A DNA stretch of 64,000 nucleotides, from assembly GCF_023161665.1 (NCBI RefSeq), contig NZ_JALNTW010000020.1:1-64000 (forward strand). Reading direction: 5' to 3'. Positions 38,050 through 63,775 of this stretch are shown one piece after another. Source of the stretch: Shewanella sp. 1CM18E (GTDB lineage Bacteria; Pseudomonadota; Gammaproteobacteria; Enterobacterales; Shewanellaceae). A program made the translations under genes and the position numbers. The stretch's first letter is position 1. Each line of letters begins with the position of its first letter. The notes below the pieces were generated by a model. That model did no database searches and was not told the origin of the DNA. It saw nothing but the letters and a program-made list of their open reading frames with translations.

Positions 38050-39486
38050 TTAAGCTGCTTTTGCTTCAGCAATTGCTGGCAAAGAATCTTTAGGGGCCTT
38101 AACAGTACGGATCACGTTGTATGCCATTAAGAACATACCTGTAAGGAAGAATACACCACCTAGGAAACGAACAAAGTAGAATGGGTAAGAGGCTTCTAAG
38201 CTTTCTACGAAGCTATAAGTCAATGTACCGTCAGAGTTAACTGCGCGCCACATCAGACCTTGCATTACACCAGAGATCCACATTGAAACGATATAAAGAA
38301 CAGTACCGATTGTTGCCAACCAGAAATGAACGTTAATCAGGTTAGTGCTGTACATACGGCCGTGGCCAAATAGAACAGGGATCAAGTGGTATAGCGAACC
38401 AATTGACACCATAGCAACCCAGCCCAATGCACCAGAGTGAACGTGTCCAACAGTCCAGTCAGTGTAGTGAGATAGTGCGTTAACTGTTTTGATTGCCATC
38501 ATTGGGCCTTCAAAGGTAGACATACCGTAGAAAGACAATGAAACAACTAAGAAGCGCAAGATTGGGTCTGTACGAAGCTTATGCCATGCACCAGATAGGG
38601 TCATGATACCGTTAATCATACCACCCCAAGATGGAGCGAATAGGATCAGTGACATCACCATACCAAGTGACTGAGTCCAGTCTGGCAGTGCAGTGTAATG
38701 AAGGTGGTGAGGACCAGCCCAAATGTACAATGCAATTAGTGCCCAGAAGTGAACAATAGAAAGACGGTACGAATAAACAGGGCGACCAGCTTGCTTAGGT
38801 ACAAAGTAGTACATCATACCAAGGAAGCCTGCTGTAAGCAGGAAGCCTACCGCGTTGTGACCATACCACCACTGAACCATAGCATCTACAGCACCACTAT
38901 AAAGTGAGTAAGACTTGGTCATGGTTAGCGGCACAGCCATAGAGTTAACTATGTGAAGTACAGCAACGGTAATAATAAAGGCACCGAAGAACCAGTTTGC
39001 CACGTAGATGTGGGAAGTAGTTCGTTTGACGATAGTACCGAAGAACACCACAGCATAGGAGACCCATACAATGGTAATTGCGATATCAATTGGCCACTCT
39101 AGTTCAGCGTATTCTTTACCACTGGTAATACCAAGCGGTAAGCTGATAGCTGCCGATAGAATGATGGCTTGCCAACCCCAGAACGTAAATGCAGCTAACT
39201 TAGGTGCAAATAGTCGAGTTTGACAGGTGCGTTGAACGATATAATAGGATGTGGCGAAAAGGGCTGAAGTACCAAACGCGAAAATCACGGCGTTCGTATG
39301 TAGAGGTCGTAGACGACTATACGTTAACCATGGGGTTTCAAAGTTTAGCTGCGGCCAGATTAACTGAGCTGCGATTAGTACACCTACTGCCATACCAACA
39401 ATTCCCCACAAAACTGTGGTTAACGCGAATTGACGTACGACGGTGTAGTTGTAATCAGCGCCTTGAGGCTGGGAATGGTTCATCAT
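38050..39486 (-). CDS. ccoN: cbb3 cytochrome c oxidase catalytic subunit CcoN
   Basis: The 478-aa heme-copper oxidase subunit I of the high-affinity C-type oxidase used at low oxygen. About twelve membrane segments are visible. Histidine ligands appear in [35 protein letters not shown] and [10 protein letters not shown]. It opens the ccoNOQP operon. The start is one of two adjacent ATGs (39486, 39483). An FNR-type palindrome lies about 160 bp upstream, consistent with oxygen-controlled expression. Confidence 0.97.
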
Positions 39487-39643
39487 ATTGCTTCCACTGC
39501 TTATTACTTATACTTATTGTTGTAGAGAAAAACTCTACCCGATTAAATGACAAATAAACCTCAGCCTCCTATCGGAAACAAGGGTATTCTGTCAATATGT
39601 AACCCTGCATTTATTGAAGTAAAGCAAGGCAACGTCATGATAC

Positions 39644-39657
39644 TTGAGCTATATCAA
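39644..39657. promoter_or_regulatory. FNR-type box, ccoN side
   Basis: TTGAGCTATATCAA matches TTGAT-N4-ATCAA in 9 of 10 defined positions. It lies 158 bp before the ccoN start and 43 bp from a second box. The spacing fits activation of ccoN only if transcription starts near 39609. Confidence 0.6.
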
Positions 39658-39686
39658 AAAAGATAGGATTTAAGGGATGTGATAAG

Positions 39687-39700
39687 TTGATCTAGATCAA
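39687..39700. promoter_or_regulatory. FNR-type box, perfect palindrome
   Basis: TTGATCTAGATCAA is a perfect match to the FNR/EtrA consensus and a perfect palindrome. Its centre is 53 bp before the GTG start of the divergent lipoprotein gene, so a class II position relative to that promoter is plausible. Confidence 0.75.
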
Positions 39701-39746
39701 GGTTATCCATAGAATGTTAAAACAATTGATATAAAGGTTAATTATC

Positions 39747-40211
39747 GTGCAAGTTACTCACAAATCAGCAGTATTAGGATTTTTAGTAGCAGGTTTTTCT
39801 CTGTTGTTTCTACAAGGCTGCGAGCCTAATAACCCGCAGTTTACAGCGCCAAAGCCTATAGATACGAGTCTTTGTAGTTTTAAAACTGACGTTTGCGCCA
39901 AAACTGTTGCTGATGTTGATATTCAGTTAAGCGTCAACCCATGGCAAGCCCCAAGCGAAAAGCCATTGACGCTAACACTTAACACTTCTAAGCCTGTTGA
40001 AAATCTAAAAGTAAAACTACAAGGCCGAGATATGTTTATGGGCATTATCCCGGTGAATTTAACCCAAACCGATAAAACTGTTTATCAAGGTGAGTTAGTG
40101 TACGGTTCATGCAGCAGTGGTTATATGGTTTGGAGCACTGTAGTGAGTTTTACAAGTGGTGGAGAGGAGGTGTTCACGACCTTTGACTTCCTTGCCGATC
40201 ATCCGGGTTAA
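39747..40211 (+). CDS. Conserved hypothetical lipoprotein divergent from ccoN
   Basis: A 154-aa predicted lipoprotein with a signal peptide ending in the lipobox LQGC (Cys at about residue 25). The mature part has three further Cys (CSFKTDVC and GSCSSG) and a beta-rich pattern. I do not recognise a named family. The start is GTG at 39747, the only one that keeps the signal peptide intact. It is divergent from ccoN and shares its FNR-box region, so co-regulation with the oxidase and a role in redox metal handling are reasonable inferences, no more. Confidence 0.7.
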   Translation: MQVTHKSAVLGFLVAGFSLLFLQGCEPNNPQFTAPKPIDTSLCSFKTDVCAKTVADVDIQLSVNPWQAPSEKPLTLTLNTSKPVENLKVKLQGRDMFMGIIPVNLTQTDKTVYQGELVYGSCSSGYMVWSTVVSFTSGGEEVFTTFDFLADHPG

Positions 40212-40288
40212 AGCCTAACCAAGGCGCCAATAAATAAGCAGTTAGCAACAAAACCTAAAAGGGCAGCAGCGATTCAGCAAAAGAGTTG

Positions 40289-40316
40289 TTGATAATCATT
40301 ATCATTTAGGTATATT
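40289..40316 (+). promoter_or_regulatory. Fur box overlapping a sigma-70 promoter
   Basis: TGATAAT-C-ATTATCA (40290-40304) is a perfect 7-1-7 Fur inverted repeat. It covers a -35 TTGATA (40289-40294) and most of the 16-bp spacer before a -10 TATATT (40311-40316). Iron-loaded Fur would block this promoter directly. Confidence 0.85.
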
Positions 40317-40356
40317 GAACTTAATTCTTGCCCTTAATGCCCTTGGAGATAACATT

Positions 40357-40629
40357 ATGGCAACGCCAACTCGTCGGTTAAATATTAGTCTTCCTGAAGA
40401 CAAAATCGCCCAGTTGATCCAACAAGGTGTGCTCTGCGCAGCCGATTTTAAATGCTTAGACTCAGAAACCAAGCAAGCCGTATGGCAGCTTTGCCTTTGG
40501 AGCTGTGAAAAACGAATTCATTGTGACAAGCAGTGCCAGGAAAGCTGCAAGTCACTATGTGGCGAATCCCTAAATAGGGAATCACAGTGTAGTGAATCAA
40601 TGAATATTCTTACCTCTAAAATCGTATAA
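40357..40629 (+). CDS. Cysteine-rich 90-aa protein under Fur control
   Basis: A small protein starting MATPTRRLNISLPEDKIAQL, whose first part resembles a ribbon-helix-helix or short helical segment. A segment with nine cysteines follows (VLC, FKC, QLC, WSC, IHC, KQC, ESC, SLC, SQC). The ATG at 40357 has TTGGAG upstream; an earlier in-frame ATG lies inside the promoter region and is unlikely. I recognise no family with certainty. The Fur box and the number of Cys suggest iron, iron-sulfur or heme chemistry, but this is inference. It is monocistronic, followed by a strong hairpin. Confidence 0.75.
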   Translation: MATPTRRLNISLPEDKIAQLIQQGVLCAADFKCLDSETKQAVWQLCLWSCEKRIHCDKQCQESCKSLCGESLNRESQCSESMNILTSKIV

Positions 40630-40709
40630 GTTAAAGGCTTTTATCACTAGGGGCTTAATTCGTCACACAAGCCTATAAAACAAGCGTCACTTATCTAACG
40701 GGTAAAAAA

Positions 40710-40740
40710 GTGCTTTTACTTTGCTGTAAAGTAAAAGCAC
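40710..40740 (-). terminator. Perfect 13-bp hairpin after the cysteine-rich gene
   Basis: GTGCTTTTACTTT, loop GCTGT, AAAGTAAAAGCAC. Six T follow on the minus strand, none on the plus strand. It thus looks like a minus-strand terminator, although no minus-strand gene precedes it; it may stabilise the plus-strand mRNA end. Confidence 0.6.
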
Positions 40741-40824
40741 ATTATTGATATTGTTTTAAAAATTCCTGATTATCGCCAATCAGTATAAAATGAGCTTATA
40801 GCTAATTTTATATGACGCCGTTTT

Positions 40825-42117
40825 ATGCAACTACCACCTGTTATCCCGCTTTTTGATTCCATCGATTATATTCAGCTTGGTAATCCAATCGTCAATCAAC
40901 ACATCACCCAATTGAGCCTAGCCAAGCTTGATGAAGCTGGTTTGGTTTTTGAGCTGGCAACCGATTGGTTGTTCGAACAGAAATACAATGAAAATAACTA
41001 CAAGGCTTATCGCAGTGAATTAACCACGTTTTTACATTGGTGTTTTGATGTCGCCCAGCTCAACGTCAGCCAAGTCGGCCGCAAAGAAGTCGGCTTATAC
41101 GTGGACTATTGCCAGCATCCGCCGCAAGCGCTGATCGCTTATTTTAACGTGGCGCAATTTAAGCAAGATAAAGACAGCGGTGAAAGGGCGCCTAATCCTG
41201 TGTGGCTACCATTTCGTGGCAGTAAAACCGATGGCAAGACCAATCCTTATGTTCTCAGTGACAGTGCACTTAAAACCAAAGTGGCGATCTTATCCAGTTT
41301 CTTTAGTTATTTGATGAGCGAAGATTACTGCGAAAAAAACCCAGCGCAAATGTGGCTTAATAAAAGTCGGTTCTCTTCAAGCAGAAAGTATCGATTAAAT
41401 AGCGACGATGACAATCAACTGGCGTTCACTGAGTTGCAATGGTCTTACATTATGGCAACCGTTGAAAAGCTTGCCAAAGAGCAGCCCGATTTACATCAGC
41501 GAAGCTTGTTTTTAATTAAGCTTATTTACTCATGTTACTTACGCGTTTCAGAAGTGTCGGCAAGGGCGGGCTATTCACCGGTGATGAGCCAATTTAAACA
41601 CAACAGCCAAACCGGTATTTGGCGATTCCATATCCCTAAAAGTAAAGGCGGTAAGAGTAGAAGTGTGGCGATCTCTAAAGCATTGTTAGCAGCACTTGTT
41701 GATTACAGGCGTTACTTAAAGCTAAGTGATTACCCATCAGCAACTGAGCAACATCCGTTAATCGTCAGACAAAAAGCCGCAGGGCGCGGGCGCGATGCAG
41801 GCTTGATTAACGCTAACCTGGGAATACGTCAAATTCGCGAAGAAGTCGACAAAATCATTGAAAATGCAGCTAATGGTATCGAACGTGACGGCTTTGTGAG
41901 TGATGCCGAGCAAATGCGCAGCCTAAGTATTCATAATATTCGCCATACAGGCATTACCCATGACATCAATATTAATGGTAGACCGTTATCGCATGTGCAA
42001 GCCGATGCAGGCCATGAAAGTATCGATACCACCTCACAATATTTACACACCTCGCAAATCGAGCGGCATGAAAGTGCACAGAATAAGTCTTTTGATAGAT
42101 TGCAGGGGATTGAATGA
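40825..42117 (+). CDS. Tyrosine-type site-specific recombinase (lone)
   Basis: A 430-aa phage-integrase-family recombinase. The N-terminal core-binding domain spans about residues 35-170. The catalytic domain shows Arg in SCYLRVSEVSAR, Lys in KSKGGKSRSVAI, HNIRHTG with the HxxR pair, GHESIDTT and the nucleophilic Tyr in QYLHTS near the C-terminus. All catalytic residues are present, so it could be active. No excisionase, tRNA target or phage structural genes sit beside it. It marks the left side of the accessory region, 7 kb from dif. It is too long and divergent to be XerC or XerD. Confidence 0.9.
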   Translation: MQLPPVIPLFDSIDYIQLGNPIVNQHITQLSLAKLDEAGLVFELATDWLFEQKYNENNYKAYRSELTTFLHWCFDVAQLNVSQVGRKEVGLYVDYCQHPPQALIAYFNVAQFKQDKDSGERAPNPVWLPFRGSKTDGKTNPYVLSDSALKTKVAILSSFFSYLMSEDYCEKNPAQMWLNKSRFSSSRKYRLNSDDDNQLAFTELQWSYIMATVEKLAKEQPDLHQRSLFLIKLIYSCYLRVSEVSARAGYSPVMSQFKHNSQTGIWRFHIPKSKGGKSRSVAISKALLAALVDYRRYLKLSDYPSATEQHPLIVRQKAAGRGRDAGLINANLGIRQIREEVDKIIENAANGIERDGFVSDAEQMRSLSIHNIRHTGITHDININGRPLSHVQADAGHESIDTTSQYLHTSQIERHESAQNKSFDRLQGIE

Positions 42118-42270
42118 GAGTTTGATAGCTTTTATTCAAACATTGAATTGAACATAGCAATAAATACAAATTAGCACTGTGACATAGTCATAAAGCTTCT
42201 TCCCATGAAAAGATGCTCATGCAGGTTAAAGTCTGGCTGTCTATTGGTCAGCTTTGCTTCCGTGCTTTAG

Positions 42271-42330
42271 CAAGACGCCGTAAATATATCCCTATAGGCT
42301 CTACAAAATCGTCCCTGATTTAGAAGCTTG
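42271..42330. repeat. Dispersed 60-bp repeat, copy 2 (inverted)
   Basis: Inverse of bases 8-67 with two mismatches. It lies in the relic-rich spacer after the recombinase gene. Confidence 0.85.
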
Positions 42331-42357
42331 AACAGCACTTCTAGCAAAGCTTAAGTT

Positions 42358-42474
42358 TCACACTGTACTAGCGTGGGTATGTGTAATTACTCTTAAAAGC
42401 CGGCTATCAGCAATGCGATATACGATCTCTCCCATGTAAAGTCGGCGCGTTATGCTTTCGATAGCTTTAATGCC
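42358..42474 (-). pseudogene. Possible RelE/YoeB-type toxin fragment
   Basis: The minus strand encodes a 38-residue open segment ending at a stop, containing TRRLYMGEIVYRIADSRLL and then RVITHTH. This resembles the last strands of YoeB/RelE toxins (SRRI...HRLVYxIxDxxLLIxxCRxHY). No start, upstream toxin part or antitoxin is present. The similarity is by eye and short, so it may be chance. Confidence 0.3.
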
Positions 42475-42964
42475 TCCGTAGTTGCAGAAGAAACCGCAGA
42501 CGTAACCAACCCCAGTAAAGATCCACATTGATGAAAGCTACTGATCCGTAAAGGTCGCGCCCGTGGTTATTACCCATTTTTGCCTTAACGCAACGCCCTG
42601 CGGAATCGGATAAAACCGCCATGGCTATTAGTTAAGAGTTAATGCGACCTTATTCAGAACAGGGCGACTCAAACGTCTAATGAACAATAGAAAGTAAAAG
42701 AAGCCAGAAATATAAGTGAAAGATGGTCGCGAAAGAGCTAGATGCGCATGTGTCAGAGGTAACAGGACTCAAGCCGTTGGACTATGTTGAACGGGATAAT
42801 GTGACGGGGTAAGTTAGGAGGGGGGAATTAAAGCACTAAAAGTCAAATGGATTTAATGTAATACTAACTGTGATTAAAGTCTCACATTTTTCAACTTAAT
42901 CAGTGATTTAAGGTAAAACAATGCATACTCAAGTTGTATGATTTCACCTAACGTGAGGCTAAGA

Positions 42965-45046
42965 ATGATAAATATAACAATAGAGAATTGCAACAGCATT
43001 GACAGTGGCGAAATTAGTATCCGCCGAAACGCCTTGAATGTTAAATACGGAATAAATGGTACAGGGAAAAGTACCATAGCAAAAGCAATTCAATATAAAG
43101 TTAACTCCCCTGAGCAATTGATTAATCTGAAGCCTTTTAAACATGCTGATAGTAAGGAACAAGCGATATTGCCATCTGTAGATGGACTTGATGAAATTAA
43201 ATCTATTATGATTTTTGATGAAGACTTTATTAATAACTTCACTTTTAAAAAAGACGAAATAATTCAAAATAGTTTTTAGATCTTTATAAAGGATGATGAG
43301 TTTGAATTGCAGCCGAATAAAATTGAAGACTTTGTTAAAGGTATAAAAGCAGAGTTTGAACAAAATGAAGAACTTAAGACCGTAACTAGTGATTTGAGGA
43401 AATTAAGCGAAACCTTTGGTAAAAAACCTACTAAGCGCGGTATATCAAAAGCTAGTAAATTCTTTAAGTCACTATCGGAGGGAAATAAATTAAATAACAT
43501 TCCTGATGATGTATCACAATATACTAGTTTCATTACAAGCGAATCTAACACCCAATGGATAACATGGCAGGCAAAAGGGAATGACTTTTTAGATATTGAT
43601 GAATGTTGTCCATTTTGTGCGACTGAAATTATCGATAAAAAGGAAGACGTAAAAAAAATTGCAAGTACATATGAGCCTAAGCTATTCGAACATTTAGTTG
43701 GTATATTGGATACGATTGAAGTCTTAGGTGATTACTTCTCTGAACAATCACGGCAACAAATTATTTCTATAGTTCAAAATAAAACTGGGATTTCTAAAGA
43801 AGAAGAACTAACTTTAAAGCAAGTAAAGGAACAAATTGATTTATTATTGGATAAGTTGGCAGATTTGAACTCATTAAATTACATGAGCTTTACTGACAAT
43901 ATAAAGGTTATAGATAAAATATCAGAACTTGAAATAAACCTTGAACTAATTCCACATTTGAAGTCAGATAAAACACTTGGTGTAACAAGTGGGATAAATC
44001 AAGCTCTAAAAGATATAAAACAAGAAGTAATGAACCTTCAGATAAATGTTGGGAAGCAACGTAGTTATATTAATAAGTTAATGAATAGGTACAAAACTGA
44101 AATAAATCAGTTTCTTGAAAAAGCCGGTTATAGATATCAGGTGTTTTTCGATAGTGAAAACGAAAACTTCCCTATGAAGCTCAAGCATAAGGATTTAGAA
44201 ATTGGTATTCCCGAAGGTAGGCAACATTTAAGCTATGGTGAAAAAAATGCTTTCGCAATGCTTTTGTTTATGTATCAGTGCTTATCGCAAAAGCCTGACT
44301 TAATTGTACTAGATGACCCAATATCATCCTTTGATAAGAATAAGAAATACGCAATTATGAGAAAGTTGTTTGTGGAAAGTAACTCATTGAAAAACGCCAC
44401 AGTACTTATGCTTACTCATGATTTCGACCCAATAATTGACTTTTTCAAGATTATTCCGCTTGATGATAAAAATAAAGCACATCATATTTATAGTAAAGAA
44501 GGTCACTTAAAAGAGTTGTCAATCGAAAAGTCTGATGTACTTACTTTTATTGAGGTTTGTGATAAGAATATACAAAGAGACGTGAGCCCAATAATTAAGC
44601 TTATTTATCTTCGAAGAAAGCTAGATGCTATTAATGATAAAACTTCCGCCTATCATTTGATTTCAAATATTGCTCACAGGCGAAATGAACCGTTATATAA
44701 AGATTTGTCCCCAATGTCTGCTGAGGATGTGCAAGAGGGGATTAAACGAATATCATCAATAATAATAGATTTTGATTATCAGGCGTGTGTTAATATTGTG
44801 ACATCTGATGAGTTAATGATTGAACTATATGAGTTAGCTACTAACGATTATGAAAAGCTTCAAATATTTAGAATATTAACGGATGGTGTGAACCTAGATA
44901 ATAATTACCTTCAGAAATATATAAATGAAGTTTTCCATATAGAGAATGACAATATATCTCAACTGGATCCTAATAAGTATCATTTAGTTCCAGAGTTTGT
45001 AAATGAGGAATGTAATAAATATATAGAAGCACTAAAAACTCGTTAA
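42965..45046 (+). pseudogene. AAA_13/SMC-like ATPase interrupted by an in-frame amber codon
   Basis: A 694-codon frame, open throughout except for TAG at 43277-43279 (codon 105). Before the stop lies Walker A (GINGTGKSTIAKAI, residues about 29-42). After it come a long helical region containing a zinc-hook-like CCPFCATEI (about 211-219), the signature-like LSYGEKNAF (about 421) and Walker B LIVLDDPISSFDKN (about 444). The layout fits the AAA_13 group that includes RloC/PrrC-type and other defence-island ATPases. Apart from the TAG I see no other disruption. The ATG at 42965 follows GTGAGG. It is either a very recent pseudogene, a readthrough gene or a sequencing error. Its neighbours are a recombinase and relics. 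Confidence 0.75.
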
Positions 45047-45088
45047 CGGGTACATCTTCCTAAAAGACTTCATATCTTATATCAGACC

Positions 45089-45135
45089 ACGCCGTGAGGC
45101 GTCGTCTACTTAAAATGAAGCACGCTGTGAAGCGT
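45089..45135 (+). other. Two covarying GNRA-loop hairpins
   Basis: ACGCC-GTGA-GGCGT (45089-45102) and ACGCT-GTGA-AGCGT (45122-45135) share the loop and four of five base pairs. The fifth pair changes from C-G to T-A, keeping the pairing. They lie 25-70 bp before a small ORF. This looks like a structured RNA leader or a protein-binding array. Confidence 0.55.
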
Positions 45136-45159
45136 TAACCATCCTTTAGAGGAAACAAT

Positions 45160-45327
45160 ATGCTTAAAAATTATCTTCCAATCGTGGCAATCGCTGCGGG
45201 TGTTGTATATGCCGCCAATCGTATTCCATCGGTTGGCGTGTGCTCTAGGGGTTATACAATGGCTGGTGCTTTTCCGAATTCTAATTTTTCGGAACTCATT
45301 TTCCGAAACTCTTTTTCTTATGACTAA
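45160..45327 (+). CDS. Small hydrophobic protein (55 aa), possibly truncated
   Basis: A 55-codon ORF with a good ribosome site (AGAGGA, 7 bp before ATG) starting MLKNYLPIVAIAAGVVYAAN, which forms one membrane segment (about residues 5-20). The second half (from about residue 27) is Ser/Phe-rich and unlike a membrane protein, so the original gene may be cut there. I do not recognise it. Small membrane proteins of this shape occur in phages and mobile elements. Confidence 0.45.
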   Translation: MLKNYLPIVAIAAGVVYAANRIPSVGVCSRGYTMAGAFPNSNFSELIFRNSFSYD

Positions 45328-45509
45328 ACAGTTGTTTACTATTTCTGCAGTATGACATTCAGCTTAGCGGTGCTTTTCAAGCTAGTTAGCGATAATTACT
45401 TGTAATTCTTGTTTAGGTTTATGTTCAAAATCAGGTTCAGATTGTGGTAGCGTGTTTATGCTACAGGCAAGGGCATTTTGTTCAGCCTTTTACGTTTTGG
45501 AGTTCAGTA

Positions 45510-45790
45510 TTGGCAAAGGTTATATTGCAAGGTTTTATCATCGTAGCTGATTCAGACCTTGAGATAGTCAGTCGCGAATTGGTACCCATAAAAGCCTCAC
45601 CTTAAAGGAGGTTGGATGTATAACTTTTAGTGTGACACCTGACGAATCTAATCCTAATACGTTTAATGTTTACGAGGAATATGTAAATCAAACTGCTTTT
45701 GATAATCATCAAGCGAGAGTGAAATCATCTCAATGGGGCAAAATCACTAAAAATGTACAAAGACACTATAAAATTACACATTCTGACTAA
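45510..45790 (+). pseudogene. Frameshifted ABM-domain (antibiotic biosynthesis monooxygenase-like) gene
   Basis: The frame starting at TTG 45510 encodes AKVILQGFIIVADSDLEIV and breaks at about 45600. A second frame then continues EVGCITFSVTPDESNPNTF and ends at a TAA at 45788. Together they give the length and pattern of a small ABM-domain protein of about 95 aa (GCITF, YEEY, FDNHQ). The total length is not a multiple of three, consistent with one indel. It is probably a dead gene. Confidence 0.65.
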
Positions 45791-45838
45791 CCCCGCGTCT
45801 TAAAAGGGCGCTAGAAAGCCGTAATCAAAAGGAGTGAT

Positions 45839-46381
45839 ATGGACATAAGACAAGCAACTCAAAGTGATTTAGAACATTTTTTTACTTACCTTAATGATCA
45901 TTTGTCAGACAATGGTGTTGGCGATACCCACCTTTTTCAACCTATGTCTAAATCAGAATCATCTGTGAATGAAGCAATGAAATCACGTTTTTCTGAAGGC
46001 ATTAACACTGCAATGTACCAACAAGGCTGGCGACGTCTTTGGCTAGCATTCGATGAAAACAAAAAGATAGTAGGGCACATCGATATTAGAGCGCATGCAG
46101 AAAACCATACAACCCATAGAGTATTACTGGGAATGGGCGTTGATCGTTCAGTTCGAAAACGAGGGCTCGGCAAGCAATTAATCAACAAAATGCTAGAGTG
46201 GGTGGCTGCTCAACCTGTAATCGAGTTTGTTGATCTTTGGGTGCTTTCAAATAATATCGCGGCGCAAAAACTGTATATAAGCAGCGGATTTGAGAAGTGT
46301 GGTGAGATAAAAGACATGTTTAAAATAGACGGTAAGTCTTTATCTTATACTGTTATGTCCCGAGCATCTGTACTCGATTAA
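45839..46381 (+). CDS. GNAT-family N-acetyltransferase
   Basis: A 180-aa acetyl-CoA-dependent acetyltransferase of the RimI/GNAT fold. The acetyl-CoA-binding motif A is visible as MGVDRSVRKRGLGKQLINKM (residues about 99-118), with a preceding strand in KIVGHIDIRAH. The C-terminal segment has ALKLY-like AAQKLYISSGFEKCG. The substrate cannot be predicted. A ribosome site (AAAGGAG) lies before the ATG. It is the only intact gene between the ATPase pseudogene and dif. Confidence 0.88.
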   Translation: MDIRQATQSDLEHFFTYLNDHLSDNGVGDTHLFQPMSKSESSVNEAMKSRFSEGINTAMYQQGWRRLWLAFDENKKIVGHIDIRAHAENHTTHRVLLGMGVDRSVRKRGLGKQLINKMLEWVAAQPVIEFVDLWVLSNNIAAQKLYISSGFEKCGEIKDMFKIDGKSLSYTVMSRASVLD

Positions 46382-46836
46382 AGTTTATAAATGGCGATTA
46401 AAATGGAGTAGGGAACAGCAAGGTATACGGAGTTGATGAGTTAAGAGGTAAGAAGAACTATCGATACAAACTAATGAAAACAAGGTGAGCAGGGTGGTCA
46501 GATAGCCCCGAAACCTAGGGCATGGAGCAGATAGTTAACGTTCATAATGTTCGATACATATGCTCGCAATAAACAAAGATTATACCTTGTTGGTGTACAT
46601 AACTGACTGTTTATATGGGAATAGTTAAGATGGTTTTCAACTCCACCTCAGAATCTGAATCCTTAACCTTTTTCCAAATTAACCATCCTGTTTTAATCTT
46701 TTTTCTAAACTCAATACCTTAATCTAAGTAAGTAGCTACCTATATAAACTCAGTTTGTTGCTGTATAGATTGCTACTGGCTTCGGCTTTGACCTTGATTT
46801 TGTCTTTGCTCTGGTTATGGTTTTTGGATACCAGTT

Positions 46837-46864
46837 AATGCCGATAAGTGACATTATCGGCATT
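46837..46864. other. Perfect 11-6-11 palindrome
   Basis: AATGCCGATAA, centre GTGACA, TTATCGGCATT. The two 11-bp arms are perfect inverse copies. There is no T run on the plus strand, so it is not a normal terminator for the GNAT gene 456 bp upstream. The 11-6-11 geometry is that of Xer recombination sites, but the arms match dif only partly. Confidence 0.5.
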
Positions 46865-48048
46865 TGACTAAAAAGGGCTTTTTCAACCACGTATGCTTTG
46901 ACATTATTGTTTCGTAGCTATGTTGTTTGCTCATGTGCTTATGCATGATAATCACAGTTTTTATAACTATTTTTAGTAGTGTTTTTTGAGTTGGAACTGC
47001 ATTTAGACGCGGTATAAAGTCTATTAAAGTTAGATTGGATGGCGGCAGAACCGCCAGATTGTCGGCGTTTTCCTATATAAAATGTAAGCTCCTGAATTAA
47101 AGCCGGGCTTACTCACAATAGAAACAGCAACGACGCTAATCTTGACTCTAGTTATGTCGATAACTATTGCCAAGTTTACCTTGATACTGAATTGGCTTAG
47201 TTGGGTTTATGTTTGTTCCTGCAAATTGAGCCAATCGGAACGGTCCGACTAAGTCTGTGTTCCGCATCTAGAGCACTTTGACTAACACTTAGTATGATCA
47301 CTTAGAATGACCAATTAGAGCAAGCTAAGACCTAAAGGCTTGATAACGCATTCAACAAATTACAACTCTAGCTATTCTAGTTATCGAGCTTTAGCTACCG
47401 ACAAAAGACTAATAATCGAAGTTAATAAGATTCCAAGCTGATTTTGAAGAAATGATATGGCGCGCTGTGTGGCTACTTTTAAAGTTTGCCGAGCTTAGCT
47501 CATCAGATTTCACGTAGCGGACAGTTTAAATATTGGGTTTGGTGGTTGTTTTTGGGTGTTTTGACTTAAGTTAACTAATCACTGTGAACTTGAGTTATCA
47601 GGTCAAGTCTGCCTGTAAAACAGAGTTCGCCATTAAGTCGCATCATTTTAGGATGGTACCAGCTTGAAGACTTAAATTCGTACCATCAAAAATTCTACGT
47701 GCAACTGAATACGCCACGGATATTTGCTTAGCTCAGAATTGCATATTTAAACCTAGATAAAACTTCGATAGCGTTAATGAAAGCTTTGTATCGATGTACG
47801 TAACCAAACTCCGGTGACTCAGATTCTCAATTTGAATGACAGTTACCATATATAATGTTGAGCAACAAAACACTTAGCAACAAGGTTAAAGTGTTTGTTA
47901 GGATTGATAAGCAACTAACTCAATGAAGCGCAGCGACTGGATATTTACCAAGCTAGTGGCGAGTTTGGTAATAATCGATAAAGCGTTAATTGTTCAGAAA
48001 ACAAGTCAGCATATCCACTTATCGATGATTCAGATACTGTGCCATAGT

Positions 48049-48076
48049 TATGCGTACAATGTATATTATGTTAAAT
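48049..48076. other. dif: Chromosomal dif site (XerCD recombination site)
   Basis: XerC arm TATGCGTACAA, 6-bp centre TGTATA and XerD arm TTATGTTAAAT. The XerD arm and the centre are identical to E. coli dif, and the XerC arm matches at 7 of 11 positions (GGTGCGCATAA). This is the site where XerCD, activated by FtsK, resolves chromosome dimers at division. It places this window in the replication terminus. Confidence 0.9.
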
Positions 48077-48087
48077 ATGGTGTTTTA

Positions 48088-48122
48088 TAAAAAAGGCGCA
48101 GCTTATAATAAATAACTGCGCC
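48088..48122 (-). terminator. Terminator after the lipoprotein gene, next to dif
   Basis: On the minus strand GGCGCAG pairs with CTGCGCC around a 14-nt AT-rich loop, followed by six T. It lies 12 bp from dif. Confidence 0.85.
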
Positions 48123-48147
48123 TATATTGCATTGTATTCGATATATA

Positions 48148-49230
48148 TTATTTTATTCCGTGATTTTCAAAGCCTTTACCGACGCTTCTTATTGCATCGT
48201 TAACGGCATCAATTTTTTCACTTTCTTTACTTCCGTGTGCCTCGATAGCTTTTGTTTCGGCTTCTACTCTTCGATATTTATGCTCTTTTTCAAGCTCATT
48301 ATCGGCAAGGACTTTAGCCTTTTGCGTGGCTATTTTATTTCTCTCTTGTTCAAGCTCTGATGTCGATTTAGGTATAACTGAAGACTTATCATCCTTAATT
48401 ATAACTCCTGCTGATAAAGCGATACGTTCACCTGCTGCGGTTATTGCATAAGAAGATACTTCGGAACCAAAACAAACGAAAGCTTCGATATTAACTAAGT
48501 TATTGTTTTTCAGGATTTTTGCGTGATATCTAGGACAGTCATTGCCAATCGTAGCTTCATCAACGGTAAATACGAGGTTTTGCCCTGATTCCTCAATATA
48601 ATGTGATATAGTCCTGTTCGATGGTGAGACAAAAGCTCGCTCTGTAACACCTGTATCCCAAGCAAGGGTCGAGTTGTACATAGCCTCAGCTTTTCCACTA
48701 ATTCTATTTTGAGTTGAGCTTTTAGCTTTTTTGGGACTAATGTTAAAACCTGAGTCTGTTATATATTCACCGGACGCTTTAACCCCATTAGAGCTATAAA
48801 ATAATACTTCAGAACCATAACAAAACTTAAGTGATAGATTATTAGAGTTTATAGTTGCAACATATTCCAAACAGTCCGCACCAATTGTTGATTCATTAAT
48901 GGTTAAGATTACTGTGTCTTCATTAATAAAAATTGTTACAGCTCTGTGTGAAGGAGAGAAATATATTCTTTCAGTCGTTCCATCTGGCCATTTTAGTAAC
49001 CCATTAGTCATCAATTTAGGCTTTGCTTCTTCAACTGGATTTTCTAAGCTAGAATCTGGATTATACTTAGTATAAATATCAACCTTACATTTTTCTACTA
49101 GCTTATTGGTAGGTAAAAGATCGCAGGATTCCATTTCTGACTGCATTAATCCACGATTCCAACCTTCATTAAATGCAGAGCAACCCGAGAGTGACGTGAA
49201 AATTATTGTGAGTATAATTAAGTTTTTCAT
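48148..49230 (-). CDS. Hypothetical lipoprotein with internal duplication
   Basis: A 360-aa predicted lipoprotein (lipobox LSGC, Cys17). Two related units lie at about residues 78-162 and 188-275. Each shows TER-x-(Y/F)-x-SPS-(H/N)R, then (E/D)-x-TIG-x-DC, then F-x-CFGSEV or FCYGSEV. The last 75 residues (about 287-345) are charged and probably helical or coiled-coil. I recognise no named family. The ATG overlaps the upstream small gene's stop by ATGA, so both are in one operon. It ends beside dif. Confidence 0.7.
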   Translation of the reverse strand: MKNLIILTIIFTSLSGCSAFNEGWNRGLMQSEMESCDLLPTNKLVEKCKVDIYTKYNPDSSLENPVEEAKPKLMTNGLLKWPDGTTERIYFSPSHRAVTIFINEDTVILTINESTIGADCLEYVATINSNNLSLKFCYGSEVLFYSSNGVKASGEYITDSGFNISPKKAKSSTQNRISGKAEAMYNSTLAWDTGVTERAFVSPSNRTISHYIEESGQNLVFTVDEATIGNDCPRYHAKILKNNNLVNIEAFVCFGSEVSSYAITAAGERIALSAGVIIKDDKSSVIPKSTSELEQERNKIATQKAKVLADNELEKEHKYRRVEAETKAIEAHGSKESEKIDAVNDAIRSVGKGFENHGIK

Positions 49231-49448
49231 TTACTTATTACCTCCCCCCTTACACATTTTTTACCATCTATATTTACCGCCCAATATCGCAGGCACACAT
49301 TTTTTGTCTGGGCAGCCTCAGGAGTTTTTGATGGTTCTTGACTCAACTGTTTACCGGGTTTTATTGCGCTTTCAAGTATTGAACCTGATGCTATAGAAGT
49401 AATTGAGATGCTTGCTACTGCTACGATTACTACAAGTTTTTTATTCAT
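49227..49448 (-). CDS. Small exported protein, first gene of the lipoprotein operon
   Basis: A 73-aa precursor with a signal peptide (MKN-like start MNKKLVVIVAVASISITSIA). The short mature part holds two Cys, in NVCLRYWAVNIDGKKCVRG, which may form a disulfide. The stop overlaps the start of the lipoprotein gene (ATGA), indicating translational coupling. No family recognised. The pair is probably an accessory envelope module. Confidence 0.65.
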   Translation of the reverse strand: MNKKLVVIVAVASISITSIASGSILESAIKPGKQLSQEPSKTPEAAQTKNVCLRYWAVNIDGKKCVRGEVISK

Positions 49449-49786
49449 GTTACCCTTTCAAGATATTCATAGTTTTTACAAAAACAAAACTACTTTTACA
49501 CTAGCCCCACATTGATTTATTTTTAGACTATACGGTTAACCTGTTAGTAAGTTTAATTTAGCATGTCGCCATTGAACCTTACATCGATGAATTAGTGCAA
49601 TGTATTAGAAGCTGAAATTTATGTACCAAAAATAAGAAAATATGAAGGCGAGAAATCAGTATTTTTGCGGCGGCAGAAGATATCATAACTTAAAATATAT
49701 TGCTCAATATTTTTTAAGTTATGAATTTTAAGCTTTTTACATCTACTTTGAATACAAATACTACTGCGAATAAAAGAGTTTAGAGA
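49449..49786. other. Intergenic region with long AT-rich hairpin
   Basis: This 338-bp spacer holds the presumed promoter of the small exported protein operon and a long hairpin at 49684-49723. I see no gene. Confidence 0.5.
49684..49723. terminator. Long AT-rich hairpin after the PP2C gene
   Basis: An 18-bp stem with one mismatch: CATAACTTAAAATATATT and AATATTTTTTAAGTTATG around a 4-nt loop. It lies 64 bp past the PP2C stop and may stop its transcript, though it lacks a GC-rich stem. Confidence 0.5.
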
Positions 49787-50668
49787 TTAAATTGCAATAG
49801 CGAGTATTAATTCAGCTTCACCAAATGCATCGGTTAGTTTAACTGTGCCTATCGGGATGGCTGTTTCTTCAGTATTGGCGAATATCTTTAATACATCATT
49901 AGCGATTAGAATCGAGGTATTATCAAAGCCACCGCACCATTTAGAGACATCAATCATTCTTTTGCACAGCTCGGCTGCTGATGTTCGTTGATTCAGAATT
50001 TGCTTAAAGGTGCTGTCTTCAATGTAATGAGCACCGTCAGAGGTTAAAATAAGGCGTTTGATTTGGCGGATCTTAGGAAACGTAACCAATTGTGGTTTTA
50101 TGTCAGGCCCAACACCCACAAATTGCAATAAGCCTTTGCTTAAATGCACGCCAGCAGCATCAGCATTTTGCCCTGCAAAAGTATCATCCTTTGAATACTG
50201 TTTAATTCCATGGGCTAAATTGGCATAAATACGGCTATCGCCCACATTGATCGCTTCAAACTGGCCATCGCTATCAAAAATAAACGCTGATAACGTTGCG
50301 CCGCCATTACCGTTATAAAGAGTGTAAACGTCATTATTGGCGTCTTCGACAGCAGTAATTAACCGCTGGTCAATAGGCATTAATTGGTTTTTGATACAGC
50401 TACTTAAAAATGTGGCGATACTTAGGCTTGCGCAGTTAGCACCAGACGCCATTCCGCCCATGCCGTCACACAATACACCTATAATAAATGACTTAGATGC
50501 TGAAACTTGAACTTGTACACAGACAACCCGATCTTGATTTTCTGGTCTTATATTGCCGATATCAGATGCCATGGCCACCGATGCGTTAAGTAACTCGCGT
50601 ACTGCGCCAGTCTCAATGGGCCTATTTAACCAAAGCTGAATATGTTCTTTTAAAGCATCTTGTTGCAT
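49787..50668 (-). CDS. PP2C-family serine/threonine phosphatase (lone)
   Basis: A 293-aa metal-dependent protein phosphatase. Family motifs are in order: PENQDR (about residue 43), LCDGMGG (about 66), the acidic GDSR (about 142), LTSDGAHY (about 210) and FDNTSILI (about 249). The metal-binding aspartates are present. No partner kinase, FHA protein or type VI genes lie nearby, so its substrate is unknown. The start is ATG. A PP2C alone in a gene-poor region may be an accessory signalling or defence part, but nothing here shows this. Confidence 0.85.
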   Translation of the reverse strand: MQQDALKEHIQLWLNRPIETGAVRELLNASVAMASDIGNIRPENQDRVVCVQVQVSASKSFIIGVLCDGMGGMASGANCASLSIATFLSSCIKNQLMPIDQRLITAVEDANNDVYTLYNGNGGATLSAFIFDSDGQFEAINVGDSRIYANLAHGIKQYSKDDTFAGQNADAAGVHLSKGLLQFVGVGPDIKPQLVTFPKIRQIKRLILTSDGAHYIEDSTFKQILNQRTSAAELCKRMIDVSKWCGGFDNTSILIANDVLKIFANTEETAIPIGTVKLTDAFGEAELILAIAI

Positions 50669-51137
50669 AGCGTAGTCTTAGATTATCTGAAGGTATGTCT
50701 GTTGTTTTCAATATAACGTAAGCAAGCTGTTTATGGTATCTCGCTGCGTGTTTAAGCTGCATTTTATCGGGTAAAAATGGCTTGAATTTTGAGCTAACGG
50801 GGCTGAAGCATAAATTAGAACTAGTAATTTGAGCCTTGATACTTATTGCAACATCTGTGGCGTAGTTTGATTGTTTCGGCTTTCCAACTTACAAACTAGC
50901 CTTACCATCAACAGTTACTGCACTATGATGGCAACGTAAATGCAGCTTAGTATTTACGTGATACTTACGTACATCTTTATTTAGTAAATTAGCATGTTTA
51001 ATAGCTTGACTCGTTTTTGTTTATGACTAAACTACGCGCCGTTTGCCTGACGAGTAACTGCTGTAGCCCAGTATTGCTGGTGTTTGTGCGTTGTCAGGTA
51101 AGCCGTGTATTTTCTTTATTTAATCCAAGGACAATAA
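50669..51137. other. Long leader/promoter region before codB
   Basis: This 469-bp divergent spacer contains a structured segment at 51043-51101 (9-bp outer stem, small inner hairpin) within 40-100 bp of the codB start. It should also hold the PP2C promoter. No gene is visible. Confidence 0.5.
51043..51101 (+). promoter_or_regulatory. Candidate structured 5' leader of codB
   Basis: TTGCCTGAC (51043-51051) pairs with GTCAGGTAA (51093-51101) over 9 bp with one G-U. Inside is a small hairpin CCAG, TATTG, CTGG (51068-51080). The segment ends 36 bp before the codB start. It does not match riboswitch consensuses I know (TPP, purine, guanidine). Confidence 0.4.
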
Positions 51138-52346
51138 ATGGCAAGCGATAATAATTACAGTTTAAGCCCGGTGCCTATTTCGGCACGTAAAGGTGTTTTA
51201 TCCCTAACGATGGTGATGTTGGGACTGACCTTTTTTTCAGCGAGTATGTGGACAGGTGGCACACTCGGTACTGGTCTCTCTTTTAATGATTTTGTTCTTG
51301 CGGTTCTCATTGGTAATTTAATTCTCGGTATTTACACTTCGTTTCTCGGTTATATTGGCGCTCAAACAGGGCTTTCAACTCACCTCCTCGCTCGTTACTC
51401 TTTCGGTTTAAAAGGTTCTTGGTTACCCTCGCTACTTCTTGGTGGCACTCAAGTTGGTTGGTTTGGAGTTGGCGTGGCAATGTTTGCTATTCCGGTTCAA
51501 AAAGCTACTGGCATCGATACAAATCTCCTCATTATCATCTCTGGTCTACTCATGACCTTCACTGTTTACTTCGGCATTGGCGCCATTATGATCCTATCAG
51601 CCATTGCTGTTCCTGCAATTGCGCTTTTTGGTGGTTTCTCTGTTATTCAAGCCGTTGACACTATGGGCGGCATGCAAGGCTTAATGGCGGTTGAACCAGA
51701 AAACCCTATCGATTTTAATACCGCGCTAGTGTTAGTTGTCGGCTCGTTCATTTCAGCCGGTACTTTAACCGCAGACTTTGTACGCTTTGGTAAGAACCCT
51801 AAAACCGCAGTGTTTGTCACTATGTTCGCTTTCTTTATTGGCAACTCTTTAATGTTTGTCTTTGGCGCAGCAGGTGCAGCGGCAACAGGCCAAGCGGATA
51901 TCTCGGAAGTAATGATTGCTCAGGGCTTATTAATCCCAGCGATTATCATCTTAGGTCTTAATATTTGGACCACTAACGACAATGCGCTTTATGCCTCTGG
52001 TCTTGGTTTTTCAAATATTACCGGCTTACCAAGTAAGTACCTGTCTATTTTTAACGGCATTATCGGCACCTTATGTGCACTATGGTTATATAATAACTTC
52101 GTTGGCTGGTTGACCTTTTTGTCAGCCGCCATTCCTCCTATCGGCGGGATCATCATTGCGGATTACTTGCGTAACCGTGAAAAATATAAAGACTTTACTA
52201 GCGCTAAATTCTCAACTGTTAATTGGGCGGCAATTAGCGGTGTGATGATTGGCGTGCTTGCAGGTCACTTATTACCGGGCATAGTACCAATCAATGCGGT
52301 ATTAGCTGGTGCAATCAGCTACTTATTGATTGATGAAGTACTATAA
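51138..52346 (+). CDS. codB: Cytosine permease CodB (NCS1 family)
   Basis: A 402-aa inner-membrane transporter of the nucleobase:cation symporter-1 family, with about twelve membrane segments. CodB-like features are the N-terminal start before LTMVMLGLTFFSASMWTGG, the LLARYSFG segment, and WTTNDNALYASGLGFSN in the middle. AAGGAC lies before the ATG. It forms an operon with codA 67 bp downstream. Substrate is called by similarity and by the adjacent cytosine deaminase. Confidence 0.92.
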   Translation: MASDNNYSLSPVPISARKGVLSLTMVMLGLTFFSASMWTGGTLGTGLSFNDFVLAVLIGNLILGIYTSFLGYIGAQTGLSTHLLARYSFGLKGSWLPSLLLGGTQVGWFGVGVAMFAIPVQKATGIDTNLLIIISGLLMTFTVYFGIGAIMILSAIAVPAIALFGGFSVIQAVDTMGGMQGLMAVEPENPIDFNTALVLVVGSFISAGTLTADFVRFGKNPKTAVFVTMFAFFIGNSLMFVFGAAGAAATGQADISEVMIAQGLLIPAIIILGLNIWTTNDNALYASGLGFSNITGLPSKYLSIFNGIIGTLCALWLYNNFVGWLTFLSAAIPPIGGIIIADYLRNREKYKDFTSAKFSTVNWAAISGVMIGVLAGHLLPGIVPINAVLAGAISYLLIDEVL

Positions 52347-61387: not shown

Positions 61388-63775
61388 ATGCCAATAAAAC
61401 CTCTCAACAGCACCAAGCTGTACCGCGCATCTGCGCTTAAAAAATTATCTTCAGACTGTAAGTCAACCAAACACCTCGAGCCACTGGATGAAATCGTAGG
61501 CCAAGCCCGGGCGCAGCAAGCTGTAGAGTTTGCCCTATCAATGAAAGAGAAGGGCTACAACATCTATGCACTTGGCCGTAATGGTCTTGGTAAGCGCACT
61601 ATGGTGCTGCGCCATTTAAATAGACAGGCGCCTAACTCAAACGGCCGCACCCTTTATGACTGGTGTTACGTGGTTAACTTTGATGACACCCGTAGCCCTA
61701 AAGTGCTTAAGCTGCCTGCTGGCATGGGACTCACCTTTAAAAAAGATATCGAAAAATTAATGGGCAAGCTGCTTAAGTCGCTGCCATTAGCTTTCGATAA
61801 CGAAATGTATTACACCCGCGCCGATAAACTCAAAAATCAGCTAGCTGCTAAGCAAGAAGAAGCGCTTTTGTTACTAACAGAAGAAGCAAAGCGTCATAGT
61901 GTTGGTTTGTCTATTTCACCTCAAGGTAATTATGAGCTTGTTGCGTTAAATGGTGAAGAGGCTCATAGCGAAGAAAGCTATTTAGCATTGTCTACAAAAG
62001 AGCAAGACGATATGCAAGAATCGATTTCTAAGTTTGAAGCCCAGCTGCGCGGCATCGTTCGCCAAATCACCGTATGGGAAGAAGACTACGCTGAAAAGCA
62101 GCAAAAGCATGATGAGCAAGTAGCCGATGGTGTGCTCGCCCATGTACTCGATGCGTTAAAAGAACAATATAAAGAACATCCCAATGTTAAGGCTTATATC
62201 AAAGCCATGCATAAGGACATTCTTGATAATCTGGATATCTTCCTAGAAGAAAGTGAAGAGCAAGCTGCCCTTGCCTACGCCTCTATGAGCAAGAAGATGC
62301 CAAGGCGTTATCAAATTAATGTGCTGGTGTCACAAGCATCACAAATGCAGCCCATTATTGTAGAAGAAACACCTAACTATCACACCATTTTTGGTTACGT
62401 AGAAAATGCCACCTATAAAGGCACAGTATTTACTGATTTTTCATTAATTCGTCCAGGTAGTCTGCATAAAGCAAACGGCGGAGTATTAATGATTGATGCG
62501 GTAAAAGTGCTAGAGCATCCGTACGTATGGGATGGATTAAAGCGTGCTTTACGTTCTCGCAAGTTAAGTGTGACTTCACTTGAACGTGAAGTCACATTGT
62601 CGGGCACAATTTCACTGGACCCTGAGCCGATTCCGCTTGATGTGAAGATCATTTTGTTTGGTGATTTCGCAACTTATAAACTCCTACAACAGTATGACGC
62701 TGAGTTTACTGAGCTGTTTCGAGTGACTGCGGATTTTGAAGACAGAATGCCTAGAACGGATAAATCTGAAGTGCAATATGCCCAGTTTATCTCAAGTATT
62801 GTGCATAGCAACAAGATGCTGCATTGCGATAAAAAGGCGATAGCTCGGGTGATTGAATTTAGTTCGCGCCAGGCTGATGATCAAAACATGCTTTCATTGC
62901 ATTCGGTTGATATTGCCAACTTGCTGCGAGAAGCCAATTACTGTGCTCGTTCAGTTAATGCCAACATGATCCGAGTCAGTCACGTAGAGCAAGCGCTAGC
63001 TAATAAAGAGAAACGTATTTGCCGTGCTAAAGATGACTTTATGCAAAGCTTCGTTAATGGCACAACGCTGATCAGTACCGCAGGCTTAACCGTTGGCCAA
63101 GTTAACGCGTTATCGGTGATGTCGACCACGGATTATCAGTTCGGTGCGCCAAGCAGGATCACCGCGACTACCGCGTTTGGTGAAGGTCGAGTGTTTGATA
63201 TTGAGCGTAATGTAGAGCTGAGCGGCAGCATTCACTCTAAGGGCGTGATGATTTTAACTGCGTATATCGCTTCGATTTTGGGTAAAACCGACAAGATCCC
63301 ATTATCGACTCACCTCACCTTTGAGCAATCGTATGGCGGTGTTGATGGTGACAGCGCCACTATGGCTGAGCTTTGTGCCATGTTGTCATCTTTTGCGGGT
63401 GTTGGATTAAGACAGGATATTGCGATTACTGGCTCAATGAACCAGTTTGGTGAGGCGCAGCCGATTGGCGGGGTTAATGAGAAAATCGAAGGTTTCTTTG
63501 ATGTTTGTAAGATCCGTGGGCGCAAAGACAGCCAAGGCGTGATTATTCCGCAATCGAATGTGCATAATCTGATGTTACGTAAAGACATTGTCGATGCTGT
63601 AGACAAAGGTAAATTCCACATTTGGGCGATTAGCCATGTGGATCAAGCCATCGAGCTATTGACCGATCTCAAGGTTGGCAGTTTAAATGCTAAAGAGCAG
63701 TACCCTAAGAACAGCATTTTAGGCTTAGCTCAGGCAAGGTTAAACAGTTTACGAAAAACTGACACTAAAGATTAA
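61388..63775 (+). CDS. Lon-like ATP-dependent protease (LonB/YcbZ type)
   Basis: A 795-aa AAA+ protease. The N-terminal ATPase part shows a Walker A-like GRNGLGKRTMV (about residue 58), where one loop position differs from the usual GxxGxGKT/S. Later parts include VLMIDAVKVL, FEDRMPR and the Lon protease domain with catalytic Ser656 in VDGDSATMAEL and Lys699 in GGVNEKIEGF, 43 residues apart as in E. coli Lon (S679/K722). Strong AGGAGG lies 8 bp before the ATG. Together these fit the non-canonical LonB/YcbZ-type family, not housekeeping Lon. It is a single gene with a terminator 80 bp beyond its stop. Confidence 0.9.
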   Translation: MPIKPLNSTKLYRASALKKLSSDCKSTKHLEPLDEIVGQARAQQAVEFALSMKEKGYNIYALGRNGLGKRTMVLRHLNRQAPNSNGRTLYDWCYVVNFDDTRSPKVLKLPAGMGLTFKKDIEKLMGKLLKSLPLAFDNEMYYTRADKLKNQLAAKQEEALLLLTEEAKRHSVGLSISPQGNYELVALNGEEAHSEESYLALSTKEQDDMQESISKFEAQLRGIVRQITVWEEDYAEKQQKHDEQVADGVLAHVLDALKEQYKEHPNVKAYIKAMHKDILDNLDIFLEESEEQAALAYASMSKKMPRRYQINVLVSQASQMQPIIVEETPNYHTIFGYVENATYKGTVFTDFSLIRPGSLHKANGGVLMIDAVKVLEHPYVWDGLKRALRSRKLSVTSLEREVTLSGTISLDPEPIPLDVKIILFGDFATYKLLQQYDAEFTELFRVTADFEDRMPRTDKSEVQYAQFISSIVHSNKMLHCDKKAIARVIEFSSRQADDQNMLSLHSVDIANLLREANYCARSVNANMIRVSHVEQALANKEKRICRAKDDFMQSFVNGTTLISTAGLTVGQVNALSVMSTTDYQFGAPSRITATTAFGEGRVFDIERNVELSGSIHSKGVMILTAYIASILGKTDKIPLSTHLTFEQSYGGVDGDSATMAELCAMLSSFAGVGLRQDIAITGSMNQFGEAQPIGGVNEKIEGFFDVCKIRGRKDSQGVIIPQSNVHNLMLRKDIVDAVDKGKFHIWAISHVDQAIELLTDLKVGSLNAKEQYPKNSILGLAQARLNSLRKTDTKD

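Follow-up and report, generated by a model that had tools for sequence, protein, structure and literature searches.

The dif site of Shewanella oneidensis MR-1, with the same layout as the site considered here and lying 13 kb from the maximum of GC skew, is tabulated by Carnoy and Roten (2009, PMC2731167). The same paper deals with XerS/difSL and XerH/difH, each of them a tyrosine recombinase gene paired with an adjacent 28-bp site at the terminus. Two other kinds of element will be compared with the locus below: IMEX such as CTXphi-like prophages, which are reviewed in PMC5357621, and the tyrosine recombinases of plasmids that are labelled "site-specific integrase" (PLSDB). By an extra recombinase I will mean one present besides XerC and XerD. 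No account of such a recombinase at dif, or of the palindrome that I will call rs, was found among the papers listed in searches of the open-licence PMC literature.

The window, that is, the whole stretch of 64,000 nt that was analysed, lies on an 80-kb contig of a Shewanella genome assembly of 4.94 Mb in 41 contigs. Its features are listed in Table 1.

Table 1. Features of the window in order of position, numbered from the first nucleotide of the 64,000-nt stretch.
Feature	Coordinates	Strand	Remarks
Sole KOPS of the 80-kb contig	12118-12125	+	GGGCAGGG; points to dif
ftsK	18842-21445	+	4TM, alpha, motor and gamma domains
ccoN	38050-39486	-	Left marker of the conserved neighbourhood
dif-side tyrosine recombinase gene	40825-42117	+	430 aa, PF00589; not XerC or XerD; points to dif
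AAA ATPase gene	42938-45046	+	In-frame TAG at 43277-43279
GNAT acetyltransferase gene	45839-46381	+	Between recombinase and rs
rs	46837-46864		AATGCCGATAA-GTGACA-TTATCGGCATT; perfect 11-6-11 palindrome; between recombinase and dif
dif	48049-48076	+	XerC arm TATGCGTACAA, centre TGTATA, XerD arm TTATGTTAAAT
Variable segment	48077-49816		Begins at the right edge of dif, where the alignment with the nearest relative ends
360-aa lipoprotein-like ORF	48148-49230		Inside the variable segment; no family found
LonB-like protease gene	61388-63775	+	Right marker; 13 kb from dif

The initial annotation took positions 48049-48076 to be a dif site. An exact string search finds the 28-base string TATGCGTACAATGTATATTATGTTAAAT there on the + strand, and its XerD arm and TGTATA centre are, exactly as claimed, identical to those of E. 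coli dif. The string thus has the 11-6-11 layout and the canonical centre and XerD arm of a chromosomal dif. The XerC arm had been called a plausible variant, and so it proves: TGCGTACAA recurs in 11 of the 91 Shewanella genomes that have a dif match (its own genome included) and also in eight named genome contigs, those that match the exact 26-mer of the window's dif, all of them Shewanella. Its three letters of difference from the XerC arm of MR-1 (TATGCGTACAA here, ACTGCGCACAA in the table of PMC2731167) are those of a natural variant within the genus and do not mark the site as degenerate or derived from a phage.

Scored against a dif consensus derived from the genus Shewanella, positions 48049-48076 match at 28 of 28 letters. 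The runner-up in the window reaches 20, and the best score in each of 20 sequences of 64 kb simulated at similar composition was 19-21; by this measure the window holds no second dif-like site above chance. Over all 41 contigs the 15-base XerD-side core has one exact occurrence (the next best, on contig C31, has one mismatch), and the full-site pattern, with up to three mismatches allowed, has a single match; neither search turned up a second, better dif in the genome.

With the same tolerance of three mismatches, a matching dif is found in 91 of 97 Shewanella genomes, exactly one in each. Under a slightly different pattern, G034 shows two sites among the matches listed. The six genomes without a match are all drafts, of 30-1060 contigs. 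In four of these (G050, G071, G088 and G096) a contig stops 0.1-4.4 kb past ccoN on the side of dif, as if the dif region breaks assemblies; for the other two (G001 and G078) no explanation was found. In an alignment of 56 dif sequences, which includes at least two duplicates, the 26-bp core is nearly invariant, with one C/T position, in the XerC arm, and the flanks differ. Some letters outside the site are partly conserved in the same 56 sequences: CACAYA at -8 to -3 and, in the stretch from +29 to +37 on the right, G at 29 and 31 and T at 32 and 34.

The polarity of KOPS (pattern GGGNAGGG) was examined along the 80-kb contig and, in each of four relatives, along a stretch of 400 kb. The motifs converge on dif in 14 of 14 cases in the nearest relative and in 13/15, 8/9 and 59/62 in the other three, so that 94 of the pooled 100 fit a split at dif. 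Three control motifs of like composition, counted in the same four stretches, fit the split in 42/58, 46/63 and 51/87 cases (59-73%), and the polarity of KOPS therefore exceeds what mere G-richness would give. A switch of KOPS polarity close to the site had been predicted, and in the relatives it is there: in G085 it is bracketed to within 0.9 kb on one side of dif and 2.0 kb on the other. Shorter KOPS-like 7-mers give a less clean picture in the nearest relative (39/47 and 35/40 at the best split). The window's own genome contains 92 KOPS, with longest runs in one orientation of 10/10 (contig C22) and 9/9 (contig C11). As for GC skew, the cumulative curve of the 80-kb contig does not flip and is still rising weakly at the contig end, 32 kb to the right of dif, and in the four relatives, read at a resolution of 1 kb, the maxima are 2, 12, 14 and 34 kb distant from dif, the last in the nearest relative. 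The skew is thus less clean than the polarity of KOPS and, so far as it goes, speaks against the site.

The genome encodes XerD (384 bits, above the curated cut-off) and, at 272.6 bits, another full-length recombinase of Xer type, which I take to be XerC; the XerD profile matches 11 places in all. The window's own ftsK had been brought in as support, and it is indeed present with all its domains, but the presence of the gene is no evidence for a dif site. The interpretation of 48049-48076 as dif stands, since the site is unique in its genome and conserved in the genus, KOPS converge on it in the relatives, and XerD, a second Xer-type recombinase and FtsK are encoded; it is almost certainly the dif of this Shewanella chromosome. 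There is nothing unusual about it as a dif, and the kind is known, having been published for Shewanella in 2009. The 28-bp length, the centre, the XerD arm, the single copy at the KOPS junction and the presence of Xer and FtsK genes agree with the dif/XerCD/FtsK system of gammaproteobacteria, and the differences are the XerC arm, as compared with MR-1, and a skew maximum that lies away from the site. By what is known of that system, XerC and XerD would bind the two arms; FtsK, guided by the converging KOPS, would bring together the two dif copies of a chromosome dimer and would then activate XerD; and exchange within the central 6 bp would give back two monomers. Dimers would in this way be resolved at 48049-48076.

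The surroundings of dif are conserved in outline and highly variable close to the site. ccoN lies to the left of dif, oriented as in the window, in 60 of the 75 Shewanella genomes in which a single contig holds the two. In the 15 deviating genomes the orientation of dif relative to ccoN differs from the window's; seven of them were checked, and in these dif is still between ccoN and lonB. A comparison of G058 with G074 finds about 165 bp around dif inverted, with no rs at the breakpoints of the inversion and no mechanism found for it. As the convergence of KOPS is symmetric, a flip of dif may be neutral. The interval from dif to codB ranges from 2.9 to 44.9 kb in eight genomes (G087 has no codB match in the stretch examined), and G087 has about 7.7 kb inserted directly to the left of dif as compared to G054.

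In the window, the 3.2 kb from 42202 to 45439, which hold the AAA ATPase gene, are missing from the nearest relative. The portion of the ATPase after the TAG matches the candidate defence family PDC-S06 (E 1.7e-204). The left side of dif had been described as relic-rich, in keeping with a region where phages insert. The relics are real, since a stop codon interrupts the AAA gene in frame and some 1.7 kb contain no ORF of 100 aa, but a phage origin is not borne out. No Zot was found among the ORFs near dif that were given to Pfam (a subset of the ORFs), and Rfam has no match in 39400-51200. To the right of dif, in the region 48148-49448, a 73-aa ORF without a family accompanies the 360-aa ORF, and a PP2C-like phosphatase at 49787-50668 matches phrog_17277 (E 4.7e-82).

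Less expected than dif itself are the recombinase and the palindrome beside it, which accompany dif in several bacterial families. The XerD model gives the dif-side recombinase 36 bits, as against 384 for XerD itself, and the XerS model gives it 20.7 bits against a cut-off of 267; it is far under the cut-offs for XerC and XerD as well. Close relatives are present in 77 of 97 Shewanella genomes (a 78th, G073, was dropped for a distant match of 29% identity), and in two of the 77, G003 and G061, the gene is broken by stops. In all 67 genomes with recombinase and dif on one contig the gene points to dif; dif itself is on the opposite strand in eight of them. The gap between the two in these 67, taken from the edge of the match and not from an annotated start codon, runs from 16 bp to 28 kb with a median of 1159 bp (no more than 250 bp in 20 genomes and no more than 10 kb in 60); in the window it is 5936 bp. 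Seventeen Shewanella genomes have dif without the recombinase.

At the level of the order, the recombinase is found in 55 of 247 genomes at E 1e-40, 44 of them outside the genus Shewanella. Among the matches listed, dif is on the same contig in 29 of these 44, the other 15 having it elsewhere or not listed. In three other families, at about 54-59% identity, the gene points to dif in 24 of 24 genomes and lies within 10 kb of it in 21, with a gap of 43-101 bp in 11 (again among the matches listed). In five genomes among the matches listed, where identity is 31-38%, it lies within 10 kb of dif yet points away. One of the three families is very likely Aeromonas, to judge from its dif and from a named A. 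caviae record, in which the order is rs, recombinase, dif and LonB gene.

Comparison of the coding sequences argues that the recombinase is under strong purifying selection, with dN/dS of 0.019-0.044 in eight pairs in which dS is partly saturated. Seven residues (R240, K274, K277, H370, R373, H397 and Y406), which I take to be the catalytic Arg, Lys, His-x-x-Arg, His and Tyr of tyrosine recombinases, are the same in all 16 rows of an alignment that includes two pairs of identical or almost identical rows. A phmmer search with the recombinase found no solved relative, and a profile of the 16 sequences gave six weak matches to structures, of Xer-type recombinases and integrases. The top row of that profile search is a chain labelled ribosome-associated inhibitor RaiA. 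The structure model has a mean pLDDT of 68.7, which is moderate, and falls below 50 in residues 374-430. Foldseek places Cre, XerA and XerH on top, but the TM-scores of its 15 matches with E up to 0.001 are 0.17-0.33, so low that they confirm the superfamily alone.

The palindrome rs is the putative site of this recombinase. It is unique in its own genome within two mismatches, and the exact rs occurs once in each of the four 400-kb stretches of relatives. A search of the genus in which the arms had to match exactly and the centre had to end in C plus purine found it in 75 of 97 genomes, that is, in 74 of the 77 that have the recombinase and in one of the 20 that do not (Fisher 4e-16, a value that ignores relatedness). 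One of the three genomes with recombinase and without rs is G088, in which no more than 0.6 kb separate the recombinase from the end of its contig. The arms are constant and the centres vary, both within Shewanella (GTGACA, GTATCA, GTGTCA, ATAACG and others) and by genus (e.g., CCCCAT, TGCTAT). Because of these constant arms around a variable 6-bp centre, the joint presence and absence of site and gene, and an intact and constrained recombinase, a recombination site appears the likeliest reading of rs, and recombinase and rs together would amount to a second site-specific recombination system at the terminus.

Such a system would resemble XerS/difSL and XerH/difH in that the gene stands beside the terminus site, as it does in 67 of 67 genomes here (60 within 10 kb). 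It differs from a single-recombinase module of that kind, as described in PMC2731167, in being neither the sole Xer system nor, by the XerS model, an XerS orthologue: it comes in addition to XerD and the second Xer-type gene, it scores far below the XerS cut-off, and a palindrome of its own accompanies it besides dif.

On plasmids the recombinase has mostly distant relatives. A homologue is present in 356 of 72,556 plasmid records (PLSDB), matched over at least 80% of the length in 343, but the gene of the window belongs to the chromosome, next to dif, and the plasmid copies are less than 60% identical to it in 355 of the 356 cases. A spread sample of 60 plasmids has the homologue at one place in 58, 58 of the plasmids are longer than 100 kb (some of them chromosome-sized), and three homologues reach 45% identity or more. 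Nine plasmid loci were read with 3-4 kb on either side, and exact rs is near the recombinase in two of them, both Alteromonas; there is no rs-like site in the other seven. Apart from these nine, pSbal01 of S. baltica OS155 (117 kb) carries ccoN, neighbouring genes, the recombinase and rs, and so contains a piece of the chromosomal terminus.

I would put forward, as a bold and tentative proposal that is less likely than not, that Shewanella, Aeromonas and further families carry two systems side by side, XerCD with dif and a resident recombinase with rs, a site of the same 11-6-11 layout. The second would be related to the recombinases of large plasmids and would resolve dimers, in reserve or for special purposes, at the point to which FtsK draws the sister chromosomes, and filamentous phages would have taken up rs as well as dif.

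It is also conceivable, though I am doubtful of it, that recombinase and rs are the integrase module of a mobile element that has come to lie beside dif by chance, and that phages or islands attach at rs. The palindrome does occur in 65 viral-contig stretches, of which 26 have a relative of the recombinase on the same stretch and 42 have an ORF that is Zot-like by motif (six of six tested are Zot). Two genomes carry rs more than once: at G221:C1:2207156-2239979, which is Aeromonas-like, five rs precede dif among the matches listed, two of the spacings being exactly 7726 bp, an array that is probably one of tandem prophages, and in G234 two rs with the same centre are 11 kb apart. Attachment at rs does not sit well, however, with the nine viral stretches that have two rs, since the two centres differ in all nine, nor with the 50,697 phage records, none of which has a homologue of the gene at E 1e-10, nor with the strong purifying selection on the gene in its host. 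Moreover, where a filamentous prophage lies between recombinase and dif in Aeromonas-like loci, two cases (L207 and L210) have a degenerate dif on the recombinase side, from which it follows that those phages enter at dif by way of XerCD and carry rs along. An intact dif follows rs at 740-741 bp in 13 of the 19 Aeromonas-like stretches examined.

These prophages at dif, with rs on board, are the point of likeness to IMEX such as the CTXphi-like prophages treated in PMC5357621. The window differs from them in that no such element is recognised in it: it has no second dif-like site above chance, there is no Zot among the ORFs scanned, and its recombinase lacks a homologue in the phage records searched. 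A viral contig of a different sort, L158 (IMGVR_UViG_640069330_000004), has two ORFs, next to a dif of Shewanella type, that resemble Zot on visual inspection. A recombinase orthologue lies about 0.3 kb from that dif, and its row in the alignment is identical to that of pSbal01.

The proposal of a resident system can be doubted on a different ground, which is that the recombinase may be near dif through joint inheritance of the terminus neighbourhood and have no functional tie to dif; this too I consider a possibility on the unlikely side. ccoN also keeps its place within Shewanella (60/75), and the LonB gene lies near dif both in the window, at 13 kb, and in A. caviae, where it comes after dif, so that the linkage may in part be inherited synteny. 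What joint inheritance leaves unexplained is the tie between recombinase and rs and, among the matches listed, the short distance from gene to dif, at most 101 bp, that 11 of the 24 genomes of the three other families show.

Somewhat less probable is that rs is an operator or some other palindrome bound by a protein, for example at the recombinase's own promoter. Of 85 Shewanella rs sites, 29 are at 50-79 bp upstream of the recombinase, where an operator might be looked for, and in the 24 genomes of other families rs is 38-84 bp upstream in 15, among the matches listed; on the two Alteromonas plasmids it is upstream of the gene that precedes the recombinase. Yet 48 of the 85 sites, the window's own included, lie on the downstream side of the gene (at no more than 300 bp in 28 cases), which is an odd place for an operator. 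(For the remaining eight, the recombinase is either on a different contig or absent from the genome.) Among the matches listed for the other families, rs is downstream only in five of the 24 genomes and is not listed in four, all belonging to f15.

Last, it is very improbable that the string at 48049-48076 is itself the place where a filamentous phage or another element using Xer attaches, or a remnant of one, with the working dif elsewhere: six viral stretches do share the same 21-base dif core, filamentous prophages do lie at dif in related loci and the flanks are highly variable, but this is the single dif of its genome, nothing else in the window resembles one above chance, KOPS converge on the orthologous site in the relatives and the ORFs scanned near it include no Zot.

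The dif site itself only fixes the terminus of one more genome. The recombinase gene and rs are both small, occur in harmless strains and could readily be deleted. If the resident recombinase acts on rs, then several bacterial families keep two systems of the resolution type at one point of the chromosome. That would be relevant to dimer resolution while phages are engaging or blocking XerCD, to the cause of the great variability around dif, and to the benefit that filamentous phages may draw from rs.
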